DNA of 64,000 nt, from the NCBI RefSeq assembly GCF_030531065.1, contig NZ_JAUNOQ010000003.1, positions 124,001-188,000 of the forward strand, written 5' to 3'. The notes under the pieces are model-generated. The model did no database searches. It was given only the letters and a program-made list of their open reading frames with translations, and was not told where the DNA came from. Below are positions 4,467-55,656 of the stretch, one piece after another. The translations under genes were made by a program, and so were the position numbers. The DNA comes from Phascolarctobacterium sp. (GTDB lineage: Bacteria; Bacillota; Negativicutes; Acidaminococcales; Acidaminococcaceae). Each line of letters begins with the position of its first letter. The stretch's first letter is position 1.

Positions 4467-5183
4467 ATGAAGCTGGAAGAATTATTGGAAAAATATCCTG
4501 CCGCTAAAACTTATTTCGAGCATATGCCGAAGGAATTATTGCAGCGTTATAGCATCCGCACCTTCCCGCCGGGATATATAATTCATCAGAAGGATTATCC
4601 GCTGAATTATTTCGGCATCATTGTACACGGCGACCACCGCGTTATCAACGAATTTGAAAACGGCAATGTTTTCATGATTGAAAAAAATGAAGCCGTTGAT
4701 TTCATCGGCGAGGTAGCCATTGTAGCGGGTATGGAAAAAACCTCCGTCACCATCGAAACCCTGACGGAATGCGTCGCTTTTATGATTTCCCGCGAGGATT
4801 TTGAAATGTGGCTGTCCAAGGATATGCATTTTTTGCGGCTGATCGCTAAGGAAATAGCCTTCAAGCTCTACCGCTCGTCCTACAACCGGGGCGCCAAGCT
4901 TTTTTATCCTCCCACCTATCTGTTTATCGATTACTTGCTCAAAAATGTGCAGAAAAGTGAAATTGAAGCGAAGGGCTTCTATAAGCTGAACAAAACGCGC
5001 GAAGAAATCCGCGAAGAGCTGGGCATGACAGTCAAGACGATCAACCGTACCATCGCCAAGCTCAAGGAGCAGCAGCAAATAGGCATTAAAAGCGGTAAGG
5101 TAACGCTGTCGCTGGCCCAATACCATGCGGCGCTGGAAAACAATAAATTAACCAATGATTTTATCAGCGAAAGACGATTATAA
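4467..5183 (+). CDS. Crp/Fnr family transcriptional regulator
   Basis: A 238-residue Crp/Fnr-type regulator. Residues about 20-120 form the cyclic-nucleotide-binding-like beta barrel (IIVHGDHRVINE, then AVDFIGEVAIVAGM); the C-terminal helix-turn-helix is at KTREEIREELGMTVKTINRT (about residues 170-190). The arginine of the cAMP phosphate-binding motif is not evident, and there is no N-terminal cysteine cluster, so it is neither a clear cAMP sensor nor an FNR iron-sulfur sensor. It faces the DUF3100 operon and probably controls it. It is also the only Crp-type protein in the window that could bind the Crp-like boxes found upstream of the decarboxylase modules (33549, 35573, 37446), though such regulators are usually present in several copies per genome. 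Confidence 0.9.
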   Translation: MKLEELLEKYPAAKTYFEHMPKELLQRYSIRTFPPGYIIHQKDYPLNYFGIIVHGDHRVINEFENGNVFMIEKNEAVDFIGEVAIVAGMEKTSVTIETLTECVAFMISREDFEMWLSKDMHFLRLIAKEIAFKLYRSSYNRGAKLFYPPTYLFIDYLLKNVQKSEIEAKGFYKLNKTREEIREELGMTVKTINRTIAKLKEQQQIGIKSGKVTLSLAQYHAALENNKLTNDFISERRL

Positions 5184-5354
5184 AGCAGCTGAAAGTAAAA
5201 AACAGCTACGCTTATGGTAGCATTGGCGTAATGTATCCAGATCCATTTCCAGCAAAACTTTCTTACACTATTTCTCCGTTAATATCGATGCTTATCAATG
5301 CGTAGTATCATTTTAGTATCACGAATTTTTCCAGCTCTGTTTTTCATTTGTCAC

Positions 5355-6410: not shown

Positions 6411-6444
6411 TGGATTGCACCTCCTTCTTTTGATGTTTTTATTA

Positions 6445-6559
6445 AATCAAAAAGACCTCTCGGCCGCAGCCGGAGGTCGGAAGGTCTATATATCTTCACG
6501 CTCCAGCCTCGGCAGGCGTAACAAAAACTTACGCGGTTAGGCACCTGCTGTCTATGGCC
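6445..6559 (-). ncRNA. L10 leader RNA with attenuator hairpin
   Basis: Between rplA and rplJ the minus strand carries the segment ATAGACAGCAGGTGCC ... CCTGCCGAGG, characteristic of the L10 ribosomal leader, then a GC-rich hairpin (GACCTCCGGC TGCG GCCGAGAGGTC, about 6452-6476) followed by TTTTTGATTT. In this family L10(L12)4 binding to the leader lowers expression of rplJL. The hairpin with its U-run looks like the attenuating terminator. Confidence 0.88.
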
Positions 6560-6597
6560 CGATTATCTTCTGATTTAGTAAAATAGTAAAACTACAA

Positions 6598-48720: not shown

Positions 48721-48912
48721 TCCGTCACTTCCTTCCCCAACGCTACCCCCGCGTCAGCGTTTCATATTAAATTTATTATAACATTATTTGACGATTATTG
48801 TAACAAAGCACACAGATTTTACCAAAGTTTCAAAAAGCAGCCATAAAATACGCTTAAAGTAATTTATGTAACGCTATAAGGGGTTGCGGAATACGACGTC
48901 GCCCTTTAACGC
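48721..48912. other. Upstream region of secreted-protein gene
   Basis: No gene recognised. It should hold the promoter of the secreted-protein gene; I see no reliable -35/-10 pair. Confidence 0.3.
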
Positions 48913-48948
48913 ATAAAAAAACGGCTATCCCTATATTAGATAACCGTT
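48913..48948 (-). terminator. Terminator of the small RNA
   Basis: AACGGTTATC TAATATAGG GATAGCCGTT followed by TTTTTTATG on the minus strand. Confidence 0.88.
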
Positions 48949-49090
48949 AAACGAAAATCCTGTTCAAAATAATTAAACAGAAAGCTATCTGGCAGGCGTC
49001 GCCGCTCCTGCATCTCTTTTGACCCAATGGGTGCGTGGTTGCAACGAAATTTACCACCTCAGATAACTTCCTGCTTCGTGCCTTTTATCT
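48949..49090 (-). ncRNA. Candidate small structured RNA
   Basis: A promoter, a folded body and a terminator are all visible. A 14-base-pair stem (CAGGAAGTTATCTG, 49060-49073, with CAGATAGCTTTCTG, 48978-48991) encloses three hairpins: GGTGG/CCACG, ACCCATTGGGT and GCAGG AGCGGCGACG CCTGC. No open frame covers it. It may act as a free small RNA or as an attenuator for the gene at 48720. It fits none of the riboswitch consensus sequences that I know. Confidence 0.65.
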
Positions 49091-49096
49091 GTTTCT

Positions 49097-49125
49097 ATTT
49101 TACCTTATTTATAATTTCCTGTAAA
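49097..49125 (-). promoter_or_regulatory. Promoter of the small RNA
   Basis: On the minus strand TTTACA, a 17-base spacer and TAAAAT, placed at the 3' end of the PBECR gene. Confidence 0.65.
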
Positions 49126-49486
49126 GTATTTCTTTATTTCTCAGGTAATTGTTCAATCTATTTTCACTAATTTTCCAGCAAGAAATTATCGAATTTTTAT
49201 AGTTAGGCGCGTCGCTCTCTGTACAAATTCTTAAAACTAACTGTATATAAGAAGTTTCCGTTTTTATCCGTTTAATTATTAAACCGCTATTTGGATGCTT
49301 ATCACGAATAATATAATCGGGATCAGCGATAGCAGCATATAATAACTTAACAGCCTGTTCATAAGCATCTAAATGCCTTTCCCGAATATGTTGTATTTGA
49401 TTATCAGTTATTACCACTTCATCCGTTACTATATCTTCTGCTATACATTTATAAATTTCCCTGTCAATCCTGCCTACAAAATACAT
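49109..49486 (-). CDS. PBECR-type (barnase/EndoU/colicin/RelE-like) nuclease domain protein
   Basis: 125 residues from ATG 49486 (MYFVGRIDREIYKCIAEDIV) with GGAGCTGGTGAG upstream; the frame extends to a TTG at 49552 without a better site. It shows the pattern of PBECR RNase domains: NQIQHIRERHLDAYEQAVKL, ADPDYIIRDKHPNSG and the C-terminal SCWKISENRLNNYLRNKEIL. These domains usually end phage head proteins or polymorphic toxins; here the domain stands alone with no recognisable antitoxin. Function as a toxin or RNase is inferred from the family. Confidence 0.7.
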   Translation of the reverse strand: MYFVGRIDREIYKCIAEDIVTDEVVITDNQIQHIRERHLDAYEQAVKLLYAAIADPDYIIRDKHPNSGLIIKRIKTETSYIQLVLRICTESDAPNYKNSIISCWKISENRLNNYLRNKEILYRKL

Positions 49487-49684
49487 CTCACCAGCTCCGC
49501 CAAAATCATTTTTATTAAGTATATCAGTTATACGGCCATACCGCAACTTCAATACGCACGCTTACTGTAACAAAGCGTACAAATCGCTTGTGTCCCGGTA
49601 AAATTTCTGCAAAAGCTACTGCTTTTTCGCGCCAAATAGTGTACAATAACGATGATATTTTATTTCATCAGCCAAGGAGAAGGG

Positions 49685-52449: not shown

Positions 52450-55400
52450 TTAATCTTGCCTTGAGCCGTACTGCTCCTTAACGTCCGCAGCTTTAAGCAA
52501 AACCGCCGCTTCCGCATAAGCGCTTTGCTTCTGCGGCTCTTGCGCCGCTTCGCTAAAGTTTGCCAAGCCGAAATATTTTTCAAAAAACGTTTGCAGCTTT
52601 TGCAAAACGGTCTGCTTCTTCTTATCGCGCGAGCCGCCGCCGAAGCGCGAAACCGGAGGCAGCAGCCTGTCCACTTCCGTGCCGGTCGTTTTCAGCACAC
52701 CGTCGCGAAAAGCGTTCTGCACAAATCTTTGCGTTTCTTCCGGCTTCAAGCGTTCTTCCGCAATCAAAGCCTGCATATCGCTTGCGCAGCGCTCCTGCAC
52801 AAAGTTCTGCCAATCGTCCTTGACATTCGTCGAAGCGTTGACCGTCGCGATGAAATTTTCTATCAGCTCTCTTTTCGAGCGCAGCTGCAAGCTGGATTTA
52901 ATAGCCTTGTCGATAGCTACCAAAATTTCTTTATCCCGGCAATTAGAAGCGTGATATTTAGCGACCAGCAGCAAAATATAATCTATATTTACCTCCACCT
53001 GCTTGACGAGCTCCATTTCAAAAACAACGTCGTCGATGATGCTGTCCTTGTCGCCTTTATTCCGTTTCATTGCTTCATATATATCATGGTACGTGCCCGT
53101 ATAATCCTGAAAATCAAGCGGCGATAAAATTTCGTTGCCGGCAAAGCGGTCGAAAGCGGCGAGGATATTGCGCAAGCGCAAAATATTCCCGAACAAAACG
53201 AGAAAGTCTTTTTTATTTTGCTCGCCGATAATCGCTTCGCCCAGCGGAAAGCGTTCCTGCAATTCCGCAATGCGCTGCTCGTAACCTTTTTGCTCGACGC
53301 CGTCGGCGTCCTTATAACCGTAATAATAATCGTCGTAAGATTTCAAAAGCACAATGCCGCTGGCTTCCTTATCGCCGAACAGGGCGATAGCGTCATCCGT
53401 CGCCTGCTCCAGATCACGGAAGCAGACGATATTGCCGAAAGTCTTGACGGAATTTAAAATGCGGTTGGTGCGCGAAAAGGCTTGAACGAGTCCGTGCATT
53501 TTTAAATTCTTATCCACCCACAAAGTATTCAGCGTCGTCGCGTCGAAACCGGTCAAAAACATATTGACCACAATTAACAAATCTACTTCGCGGTTCTTCA
53601 CGCGCTGAGACAAATCCTTATAATAATTTTCAAATTCCTTAGCGGAAGTATTAAAATTAGTATGAAAGACCTTATTATAATCGGCAATCGCCGCTTCTAA
53701 AAAATCGCGTGAGCTTGCGTCCAGGCCGTCGACGTCAAAGCTTTCGTCCGCCAACACGCCGTCCGCGTTTTCCTCTTCGTTGGGCGCGAAAGAAAAAATC
53801 GTCGCGACGGTCAAATTGCGGCGCCGCTCGGCCAACTGCTTTTTGATTTCCCCATAATATTTTTTACAAGCCGCAATCGAGCTGACGGCGAAAATGGAAT
53901 TAAAGCCGTTGACGCGCTGGCCCTTCAGCGAATAATAAGCGCCGCGCACGGTCTTTTGGTCGAAGTGCTCCAAAATATATTGCACGACGGCGCCGATACG
54001 CTCCGGCGAATTGAGCGCCGCTTCGGTATCGATGGCGGCGACCTGCTTATCCTGCCTGCCGTCCTTTTGCTTAACCGTATTGATAAAATCGATGCGGAAG
54101 GGCAGCACGTTGCCGTCGTTAATCGCGTCGACGATGGTGTAGGTATGCAGCTTCGCGCCGAAGGCCTGCTCCGTCGTTTTCAAATTAGGATTGCCGCCCG
54201 TCCCCGCGTTGGCGGCGAAAATCGGCGTGCCGGTAAAGCCGAAGATGCAATAATGCTTAAAATACTTTTCTACTTTAATCGTCTTTTCGCCCTTGCGTAT
54301 CTGCCCGCCGACGATACGCGCGTGCATATCGCCGAACTGACTGCGATGGCATTCGTCAAAAATCAACGCGACGCGCTTATCCCTAATCGGGTGATGCGGA
54401 TTTTTAGCGATAAAGATGGATAATTTCTGAATCGTGGTGACGATGATGGGATACTCTTTGTAAAATCCCTTCTCGTCCGTATCCTCCAGCTGCCGCTGCA
54501 AAACGGCGGTGCTTTTGTTCGGCGTTACGCAGCCTTTAGCAAAGCGTTCGTACTCTTTAATCGTCTGGTAGTCCAAATCCTTGCGGTCGACGACGAACAT
54601 TACCTTATCGATATACGGCAGCGCCGACGCCAGCTGCGCCGCCTTAAACGAAGTCAGGGTTTTGCCGCTGCCCGTAGTGTGCCAGATATACCCGCCCGCC
54701 TCGACGCTGCCCAGCTTTTTATAATTGGCGGCGATTTCGATGCGGTTTAAAATTCTTTCCGTCGCCACAATCTGGTACGGGCGCATAACCAAAAGCAAAT
54801 TTTCCGTCGTGAACACGCAATATTTCGTCAGGATATTGAGCAGCGTATGTTTCGCGAAAAAGGTTTTCGTAAAATCCACCAGGTCGGCGATGACTTTATT
54901 ATTGCCGTCCGCCCAATAGGACGTAAATTCAAAACTGTTGGACGTTTTCCTGCCGCGACGCTGGCCGCCGTTTTCGTTTTCCTTAATGTGGTTCGCTCGC
55001 GTCGTATTGGAATAATATTTCGTAAACGTGCCGTTGGAAATGACAAAAACCTGCACGTATTCGTACAAACCGCAGCCCGCCCAAAAGCTGTCGCGCTGGT
55101 AGCGGTTAATTTGATTGAAAGCTTCCTTTATCGCCACGCCGCGCCGCTTTAATTCCACGTGTACCAGCGGCAACCCGTTGACCAAAATCGTAACGTCGTA
55201 ACGGTTGTCGTAGCGCGCGCCCTCGCTCGTACCCACGGCGTATTGGTTGATGACCTGCAGGCGGTTGTTGTGGATGTTCTTTTTATCGATTAGCGCGATA
55301 TTAAAAGTCGTCCCGTCCTCGCGCGTCAAATTCTGCACGTAATCCTCCTGGATTTTGCGCGTTTTTTCTACGACGCCTTCGTTGGCGTTGGCGATTTTAT

Positions 55401-55656
55401 TTTGAAAAAAGCTTTGCCACTCCTTATCGGTAAAGCGATAATTATTCAGCAGCTCCAGCTGACGCCGCAAATTGGCGATTAAATCCTGCTCGCTGTGCAA
55501 CGCCGCGTACTCGTAGCCCTGCTCGCCCAGCATTTTGATGAACGCCGCCTCCAGCGCGGCCTCGCTTTGATAAGCGTCGCTGCGCGCGCTTTGCGGCTCG
55601 TAAGCGGCGACCACGGTGCTTTCGTTCGTCGCCAGCACAATATTATAGGAACTCAC
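52450..55656 (-). CDS. hsdR: Type I restriction enzyme, motor/nuclease subunit HsdR
   Basis: 1068 residues, EcoR124I-like. N-terminal nuclease with the D-x-ELK pattern (RYDVTILVNGLPLVHVELKR), helicase Walker A YIWHTTGSGKTLTSFKAAQL, DEAD-like box IFDECHRSQFG, motif III FGFTGTP and motif VI QAFSRTNRIL; C-terminal helical domain contacts the methylase. It translocates DNA and cuts unmethylated DNA far from the site. Start is a GTG at 55656 with GGAGG eight bases before. Complete, with no frameshift. Last gene of the hsd operon. Confidence 0.97.
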   Translation of the reverse strand: MSSYNIVLATNESTVVAAYEPQSARSDAYQSEAALEAAFIKMLGEQGYEYAALHSEQDLIANLRRQLELLNNYRFTDKEWQSFFQNKIANANEGVVEKTRKIQEDYVQNLTREDGTTFNIALIDKKNIHNNRLQVINQYAVGTSEGARYDNRYDVTILVNGLPLVHVELKRRGVAIKEAFNQINRYQRDSFWAGCGLYEYVQVFVISNGTFTKYYSNTTRANHIKENENGGQRRGRKTSNSFEFTSYWADGNNKVIADLVDFTKTFFAKHTLLNILTKYCVFTTENLLLVMRPYQIVATERILNRIEIAANYKKLGSVEAGGYIWHTTGSGKTLTSFKAAQLASALPYIDKVMFVVDRKDLDYQTIKEYERFAKGCVTPNKSTAVLQRQLEDTDEKGFYKEYPIIVTTIQKLSIFIAKNPHHPIRDKRVALIFDECHRSQFGDMHARIVGGQIRKGEKTIKVEKYFKHYCIFGFTGTPIFAANAGTGGNPNLKTTEQAFGAKLHTYTIVDAINDGNVLPFRIDFINTVKQKDGRQDKQVAAIDTEAALNSPERIGAVVQYILEHFDQKTVRGAYYSLKGQRVNGFNSIFAVSSIAACKKYYGEIKKQLAERRRNLTVATIFSFAPNEEENADGVLADESFDVDGLDASSRDFLEAAIADYNKVFHTNFNTSAKEFENYYKDLSQRVKNREVDLLIVVNMFLTGFDATTLNTLWVDKNLKMHGLVQAFSRTNRILNSVKTFGNIVCFRDLEQATDDAIALFGDKEASGIVLLKSYDDYYYGYKDADGVEQKGYEQRIAELQERFPLGEAIIGEQNKKDFLVLFGNILRLRNILAAFDRFAGNEILSPLDFQDYTGTYHDIYEAMKRNKGDKDSIIDDVVFEMELVKQVEVNIDYILLLVAKYHASNCRDKEILVAIDKAIKSSLQLRSKRELIENFIATVNASTNVKDDWQNFVQERCASDMQALIAEERLKPEETQRFVQNAFRDGVLKTTGTEVDRLLPPVSRFGGGSRDKKKQTVLQKLQTFFEKYFGLANFSEAAQEPQKQSAYAEAAVLLKAADVKEQYGSRQD

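Follow-up and report, generated by a model that had tools for sequence, protein, structure and literature searches.

A skipping-rope RNA encoded beside a PBECR2-type RNase gene, a candidate RNA antitoxin in Bacillota and their phages

What does a free-standing small RNA gene do between a predicted nuclease gene and the gene of a secreted protein, and to which of these neighbours does it belong? The gene in question lies within the 64,000-nucleotide stretch of Phascolarctobacterium sp. DNA analysed here (the window), where an earlier note, made by eye, had located it at 48913-49125 without giving a strand and had been unable to match it to a known class. All the elements then described are present, and they lie on the minus strand. 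A search of the whole window against Rfam identified the RNA as RF02924, the skipping-rope RNA. The score is 63.6 bits, above the gathering threshold of 36.7 (E = 6e-13), and the match covers model positions 1-80 of 80. The window RNA is therefore a full-length new member of a known family and not a new class, and the fold that had been read by eye, a long closing stem with three inner hairpins, is the RF02924 consensus. Rfam classes the family as an sRNA gene and gives no function; none is assigned in the literature searched either, the original 2017 description lying outside that search.

The RNA gene is real, and it is free-standing, as the note had proposed. Taken individually, its promoter and terminator are at chance level, with 4 promoter-like sites found in this 1.2 kb for 3.8 expected and 1 terminator-like site for 0.9 expected by chance. 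Both are nevertheless credible because they are conserved in relatives: 81% of the RNAs have a -10 element ahead of them, against 31% in shuffles, and in 70 of 93 cases a terminator stands within tens of bases behind the RNA, against 14% in shuffles. The segment 48913-49093 folds with -54.4 kcal/mol (z = -3.9), and none of 200 shuffles was equally stable. No long open reading frame over the RNA was found in the ORF check of the window, again in agreement with the note. The features of the locus are collected in Table 1.

Table 1. Features of the RNase and skipping-rope RNA locus (positions in the window)
Feature	Position	Strand	Remarks
Left copy of 27-nt direct repeat	48791..48817	+	flanks cassette
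Inserted cassette with RNase and RNA genes, ~0.77 kb	48818..49557		absent from three same-genus genomes
Right copy of 27-nt direct repeat	49558..49584	+	81% identical to left copy; flanks cassette
PBECR2-type BECR-fold RNase gene, predicted toxin	49109..49486	-	125 aa from ATG at 49486; PF18810
RNA promoter TTTACA-17-TAAAAT	49097..49125	-	10/12 matches; overlaps end of RNase gene
Skipping-rope RNA core	48984..49067	-	RF02924, 63.6 bits; own covariance model R1, 104 bits
Closing stem, 8 bp	49067-49060 / 48991-48984	-	extended outward in window; AG linker follows
Hairpin 1	49057-49035	-	parsed by script; one base before hairpin 2
Hairpin 2	49033-49016	-	parsed by script; length varies across family
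AGAU linker	49015-49012	-	between hairpins 2 and 3
Hairpin 3	49011-48992	-	parsed by script
Pseudoknot, loop 1 CGUUGC (49046-49041) with loop 3 GCGACG (49002-48997)	48997..49046	-	covariation in relatives
Intrinsic terminator of RNA	48913..48948	-	11-pair stem and T-run; would also terminate any read-through RNase mRNA

In the MAFFT alignment of all RNAs, hairpin 3 of a short-loop subtype was placed wrongly; for this reason the helices were parsed by script, and RNAs of the well-aligned subtype were used to make the covariance model. The RNA is a four-way junction with linkers of 2, 1, 4-5 and 0 bases, in which loop 1 pairs with loop 3. The pairing sequences differ among relatives while remaining complementary (CGUGGC/GCCACG, CGUCCG/CGGACG, CGGCAC/GUGCCG, CGUAGC/GCUACG and GGCA/UGCC), and the observed complementarity was reached by none of 2000 permutations. 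In 24 well-aligned RNAs, 95.7% of the pseudoknot cells pair (none of 500 shuffles was as good), and 14 pairs have changed on both sides, whereas slid controls reach 8 at most. Covariation in the same 24 relatives also supports the helices. The earlier note had missed the pseudoknot; for the family, the pseudoknot is already displayed in Rfam (PMC7779021, Fig. 3A). The closing stem and the terminator of the window RNA share a striking sequence (GTTATCT/GATAGC in both), but such sharing is not systematic, since 42 of 100 permutations scored as high.

The secreted-protein gene starts (GTG, 48720) about 193 bases past the end of the RNA, close to the 190 first estimated, and attenuation of this gene had been suggested as one role of the RNA. 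This suggestion does not hold: three genomes of the same genus lack the RNA and have the divergent NMT1 gene as the immediate neighbour of the secreted-protein gene, the RNA has its own terminator, and no recurrent downstream gene family was found at other RNA loci by neighbour clustering (with crude orientation rules, which turned a few loci the wrong way). Where those three genomes have the two genes adjoining, the window has the stretch with RNase and RNA between them, flanked by direct repeats 767 nt apart; RNase and RNA genes thus form one inserted cassette. Elsewhere in the window, a large minus-strand ORF (52450-55656) that by its translation resembles the HsdR subunit of a type I restriction system lies 3 kb from the cassette, and an ordinary ribosomal protein L10 leader (RF00557) is found at 6440-6575, also on the minus strand.

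The adjoining gene does encode a PBECR nuclease, as previously noted, its product matching PF18810 (PBECR2) with 46.5 bits against a cut-off of 27.1. The protein is a single domain of 125 residues, and its structure model has a pLDDT of 90.6. Foldseek alone returned nothing significant, and a sequence search of solved structures gave only weak matches to ribosomal protein L23. When the Foldseek candidates were realigned with VIA-align, the best matches were BECR toxins: a toxin-antitoxin complex from Salmonella with Z 6.5, the ribonuclease of 1tfo (6.3), BrnT (5.7) and CdiA-type toxins (5.6 and 5.0), followed by RelE/ParE. The scores are modest, with 6.5 as the best Z, and the list points almost uniformly to BECR toxins. 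The 1tfo entry is an E. coli ribonuclease-inhibitor complex, its ribonuclease being colicin D, a tRNA nuclease. Among the RNases, His33 is invariant and sits in an N-terminal helix (28-35), and a conserved NS.I(S/T) motif lies in a late strand (98-106); the histidine and the late-strand S/T match the active site described for PBECR domains (PMC5512222). The domains are mildly basic, with a mean pI of 8.0. We predict a small, metal-independent endoribonuclease of BECR fold (PBECR2/3 type). Among the known defence systems in PADLOC, the window RNase had no match, and one relative matched weakly (17 bits).

The skipping-rope RNA is sporadic: within the genus, 1 of 7 genomes carries it, and among 398 Bacillota genomes 28 do; a motif pattern search yielded 77 bacterial and 7 viral stretches. 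When the ORFs neighbouring the RNAs were clustered, a single large cluster emerged, comprising homologues of the window PBECR2 gene at 72 loci. By crude orientation rules, 68 of these lie upstream of the RNA on the same strand, mostly 30-40 nt from it, while the second-largest cluster covers 11 loci in mixed positions. For an RNA-first census we kept 111 RNAs, having dropped four pattern matches in other phyla that are unlike the RNA (L048, L082, L096, L117) and one cut at a contig end (L108), and we searched six-frame translations with an RNase profile, taking strands as reported by the searches. The RNase lies directly upstream at 74 of the 111 (67%), intact at 60 and broken or partial at 14; of the others, 2 are convergent, 2 further away, 27 without an RNase and 6 with too little sequence. 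Two RNAs of one genome (L121 and L129, G281:C11) lie tail to tail with the RNase on opposite strands, one RNase being intact and the other partial, and at L014 the two genes are separated by 1.8 kb.

Since the RNase profile was made from neighbours of the RNA, two independent tests weigh more. In the first, all 11 genes above the Pfam PBECR2 cut-off in the 398 Bacillota genomes adjoin a skipping-rope RNA, one of which (in G343) had been missed by the strict genome filter and was recovered by cmscan; at the level of genomes the association has a Fisher p of 9e-14. In the second, viral contigs were searched from the protein side, and a same-strand RNA was found with covariance model R1 at 42 of 43 RNase loci, fewer of which are independent because some are near-duplicates. 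At 41 of the 43 the RNA immediately follows the RNase domain, typically 25-60 nt past the domain match, and the one locus with no RNA (L207) ends at a contig edge. The earlier note was right that the nuclease is a neighbour of the RNA, but it is not a mere landmark: a PBECR2/3-type RNase is the conserved neighbour and partner of the skipping-rope RNA across Bacillota and their phages. RNA and RNase also diverge together (Spearman 0.85, highest permutation 0.49, host phylogeny not controlled for), which shows a stable linkage.

Viral RNases are often parts of larger proteins, 27 of 43 lying in ORFs of about 350-870 residues, and each of the nine long viral relatives tested has an N-terminal Phage_min_cap2 or Phage_Mu_F domain. 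The RNase of the window is a solo protein, with no MuF or minor capsid fusion. On four viral contigs (L166, L168, L169, L174), two tandem skipping-rope RNAs stand directly behind one RNase gene. One viral locus (L178) differs from the others in that its RNase (2501-2875) and RNA (5150-5246) are 2.3 kb apart, possibly through an insertion. Phage copies of the RNA have been mentioned before (PMC8501573). Our own tblastn and blastn searches of phage and plasmid records returned one unannotated phage record and no plasmid match.

The Pfam family PBECR3 overlaps PBECR2, and six PBECR3 genes have no nearby RNA, which shows that the domain by itself can do without one. Four of these genes encode proteins of 1413-2356 residues, one of 693 and one of 191, the five of 693-2356 residues being L222, L232, L234, L236 and L243; presumably, these large proteins use another control. 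A weak PBECR2 match below the cut-off (L164, E = 0.001) also lacks the RNA. The RNA accompanies solo and capsid-fused RNases, and not large polyvalent proteins.

RNAs without an RNase, or beside a broken one, mostly keep their fold. With one probably false RNA (L066) kept in the count, orphan RNAs have a structure score of 44.7, against 47.4 for RNAs with an intact RNase, and retain the promoter in 61% of cases (90% with an intact RNase) and the terminator in 65% (79%). The converse, an RNase of the window clade without RNA, was not found in the Bacillota genomes and viral contigs. The RNA thus outlives the RNase and not the reverse, which is the pattern expected of an antitoxin and its toxin. 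The genome of the window itself holds a second, diverged skipping-rope copy with no RNase nearby (G000:C27:63743-63837; L149 7001-7095, minus strand). This copy scores 28.6 bits with Rfam and 41.9 with R1, has mismatches in hairpin 3 and the pseudoknot, and is probably a decaying orphan. Two other RNAs without an RNase (L011, L018) adjoin nucleotidyltransferase genes and a third (L087) a YafQ toxin gene, neighbourhoods that are also toxin-antitoxin-like.

We consider it likely that the two genes form a toxin-antitoxin, or toxin-immunity, cassette in which the RNA inhibits the RNase. A separate promoter, located where the RNase gene ends, would drive the RNA and keep it in excess; the RNA would also be made as the 3' UTR of the RNase mRNA. 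Folded as a four-way junction that the pairing of loops 1 and 3 would lock, it could bind the RNase and block the active site, and loss of the RNA would free the enzyme. In phages, where the RNase is often joined to a minor capsid or MuF protein, the RNA could keep a lysogen safe from virion-borne RNase, whether its own or incoming. The RNase activity of the protein, its toxicity, its direct binding by the RNA and the resulting inhibition are all inferred; we favour direct inhibition, as in type III systems and in the RCd22/AbiF pair (PMC12373285). We also lean, with less assurance, towards the wider proposal that the skipping-rope RNA is the dedicated antitoxin or immunity factor of a phage-spread RNase family, capsid fusions carried in virions included, with a toxin fold, an RNA fold and a gene order of its own.

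The main rival gives the RNA the role of an activating cofactor or guide: the RNase would work only as a ribonucleoprotein, scaffolded or targeted by the RNA, and the same linkage would result. There is a precedent in RAGATH-18, a structured RNA beside a nuclease gene that proved to be the guide scaffold of IS607 TnpB, and its adjacency of 64% (PMC11061315) is close to the 67% found here. However, the skipping-rope RNA has no candidate guide stretch, the loop of hairpin 2 being short and the terminator following within tens of bases in 70 of 93 cases; the RNase is a 125-residue single domain; and well-folded orphans and RNAs beside broken RNases fit an antidote better. We therefore regard this role as unlikely. 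It is likewise improbable that the RNA serves as a decoy, substrate or sensor that mimics a natural target such as tRNA and is bound or cut by the RNase, which would thereby be titrated or regulated. The junction geometry and the contact between loops 1 and 3 do recall a tRNA cloverleaf with its D-T contact, and the fold neighbours include the ribonuclease of 1tfo and CdiA toxins, but the resemblance was judged by eye and is a lead, no tRNA model matches the RNA, a T-loop motif is absent and hairpin 2 is sometimes very short.

Control at the RNA level, through antisense pairing or the 3' UTR as in type I systems and with no binding of protein, is very unlikely. As part of the RNase mRNA the RNA would be well placed for it, and cognate duplex energies are slightly stronger than non-cognate ones; the same small excess, however, appears in reverse-complemented and distant control stretches and therefore reflects base composition, and antisense pairing needs no conserved pseudoknotted fold. 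Antisense pairing with the RNase mRNA is disfavoured on this basis, although the energy test alone could miss a short pairing. That the RNA is an ordinary trans-acting sRNA or attenuator with unrelated targets, hitchhiking with the RNase on mobile elements, agrees with the sporadic, phage-linked distribution and with the roughly one quarter of RNAs that have no adjoining RNase, but is the least credible reading given the 42 of 43 protein-first viral loci with RNA, 41 of them at nearly fixed spacing, the 11 of 11 PF18810 genes in diverse capsid-fused and solo contexts, and the lack of any other recurrent neighbour.

Read as an RNA antitoxin, the skipping-rope RNA gives a structured family that is functionless in Rfam a testable function, and its sporadic, phage-linked distribution would be explained. 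The prediction is that PBECR2-type RNases, including those in phage heads, are held in check by RNA and not by protein; for a two-plasmid test, RNase and RNA together amount to about 0.6 kb. Both the RNA family and the nuclease family were known. Papers naming the RNA in the literature searched do not mention an RNase partner, and neither the pair nor its reading as antitoxin or immunity was found there, the original 2017 motif paper being outside the search.

The pair resembles type III systems (ToxIN, CptIN, TenpIN) in that a pseudoknotted, structured RNA lies beside a predicted endoribonuclease gene and is linked to phages. In classical type III systems the antitoxin RNA is a short-repeat array upstream of the toxin gene, with a single promoter and a terminator in between (PMC5086642), whereas the skipping-rope RNA comes after the RNase gene, has a promoter to itself and forms no repeat array, being single in the window and present in two copies at four viral loci. 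The toxin also differs, since the window protein is a PBECR2 domain of BECR fold with no ToxN family match by Pfam. A second parallel is a C. difficile prophage pair in which the RCd22 RNA neutralises AbiF by direct binding (PMC12373285). As is proposed here, a phage-borne toxic protein is joined to a conserved structured RNA, but AbiF belongs to the Abi_2 proteins, which are related to ancestors of Cas13, and its RNA precedes the gene and has two motifs. The viral RNases, often the C-terminus of a MuF-like minor capsid protein, recall the MuF polymorphic toxins of temperate phages, in which a minor head protein carries a nuclease domain at its C-terminus (PMC5576092); PBECR-MuF fusions have been described previously (PMC5512222). 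The immunity candidates published for these toxins are small downstream ORFs, whereas skipping-rope loci have the RNA in that place, and the window RNase stands alone. If our reading is true, the pair would be a variant of the RNA-inhibited kind of toxin, distinct in its gene order and in the folds of both toxin and RNA. It would add a toxin fold to RNA-inhibited toxin-antitoxin systems and, for part of the MuF toxins, provide the immunity factor that is missing.
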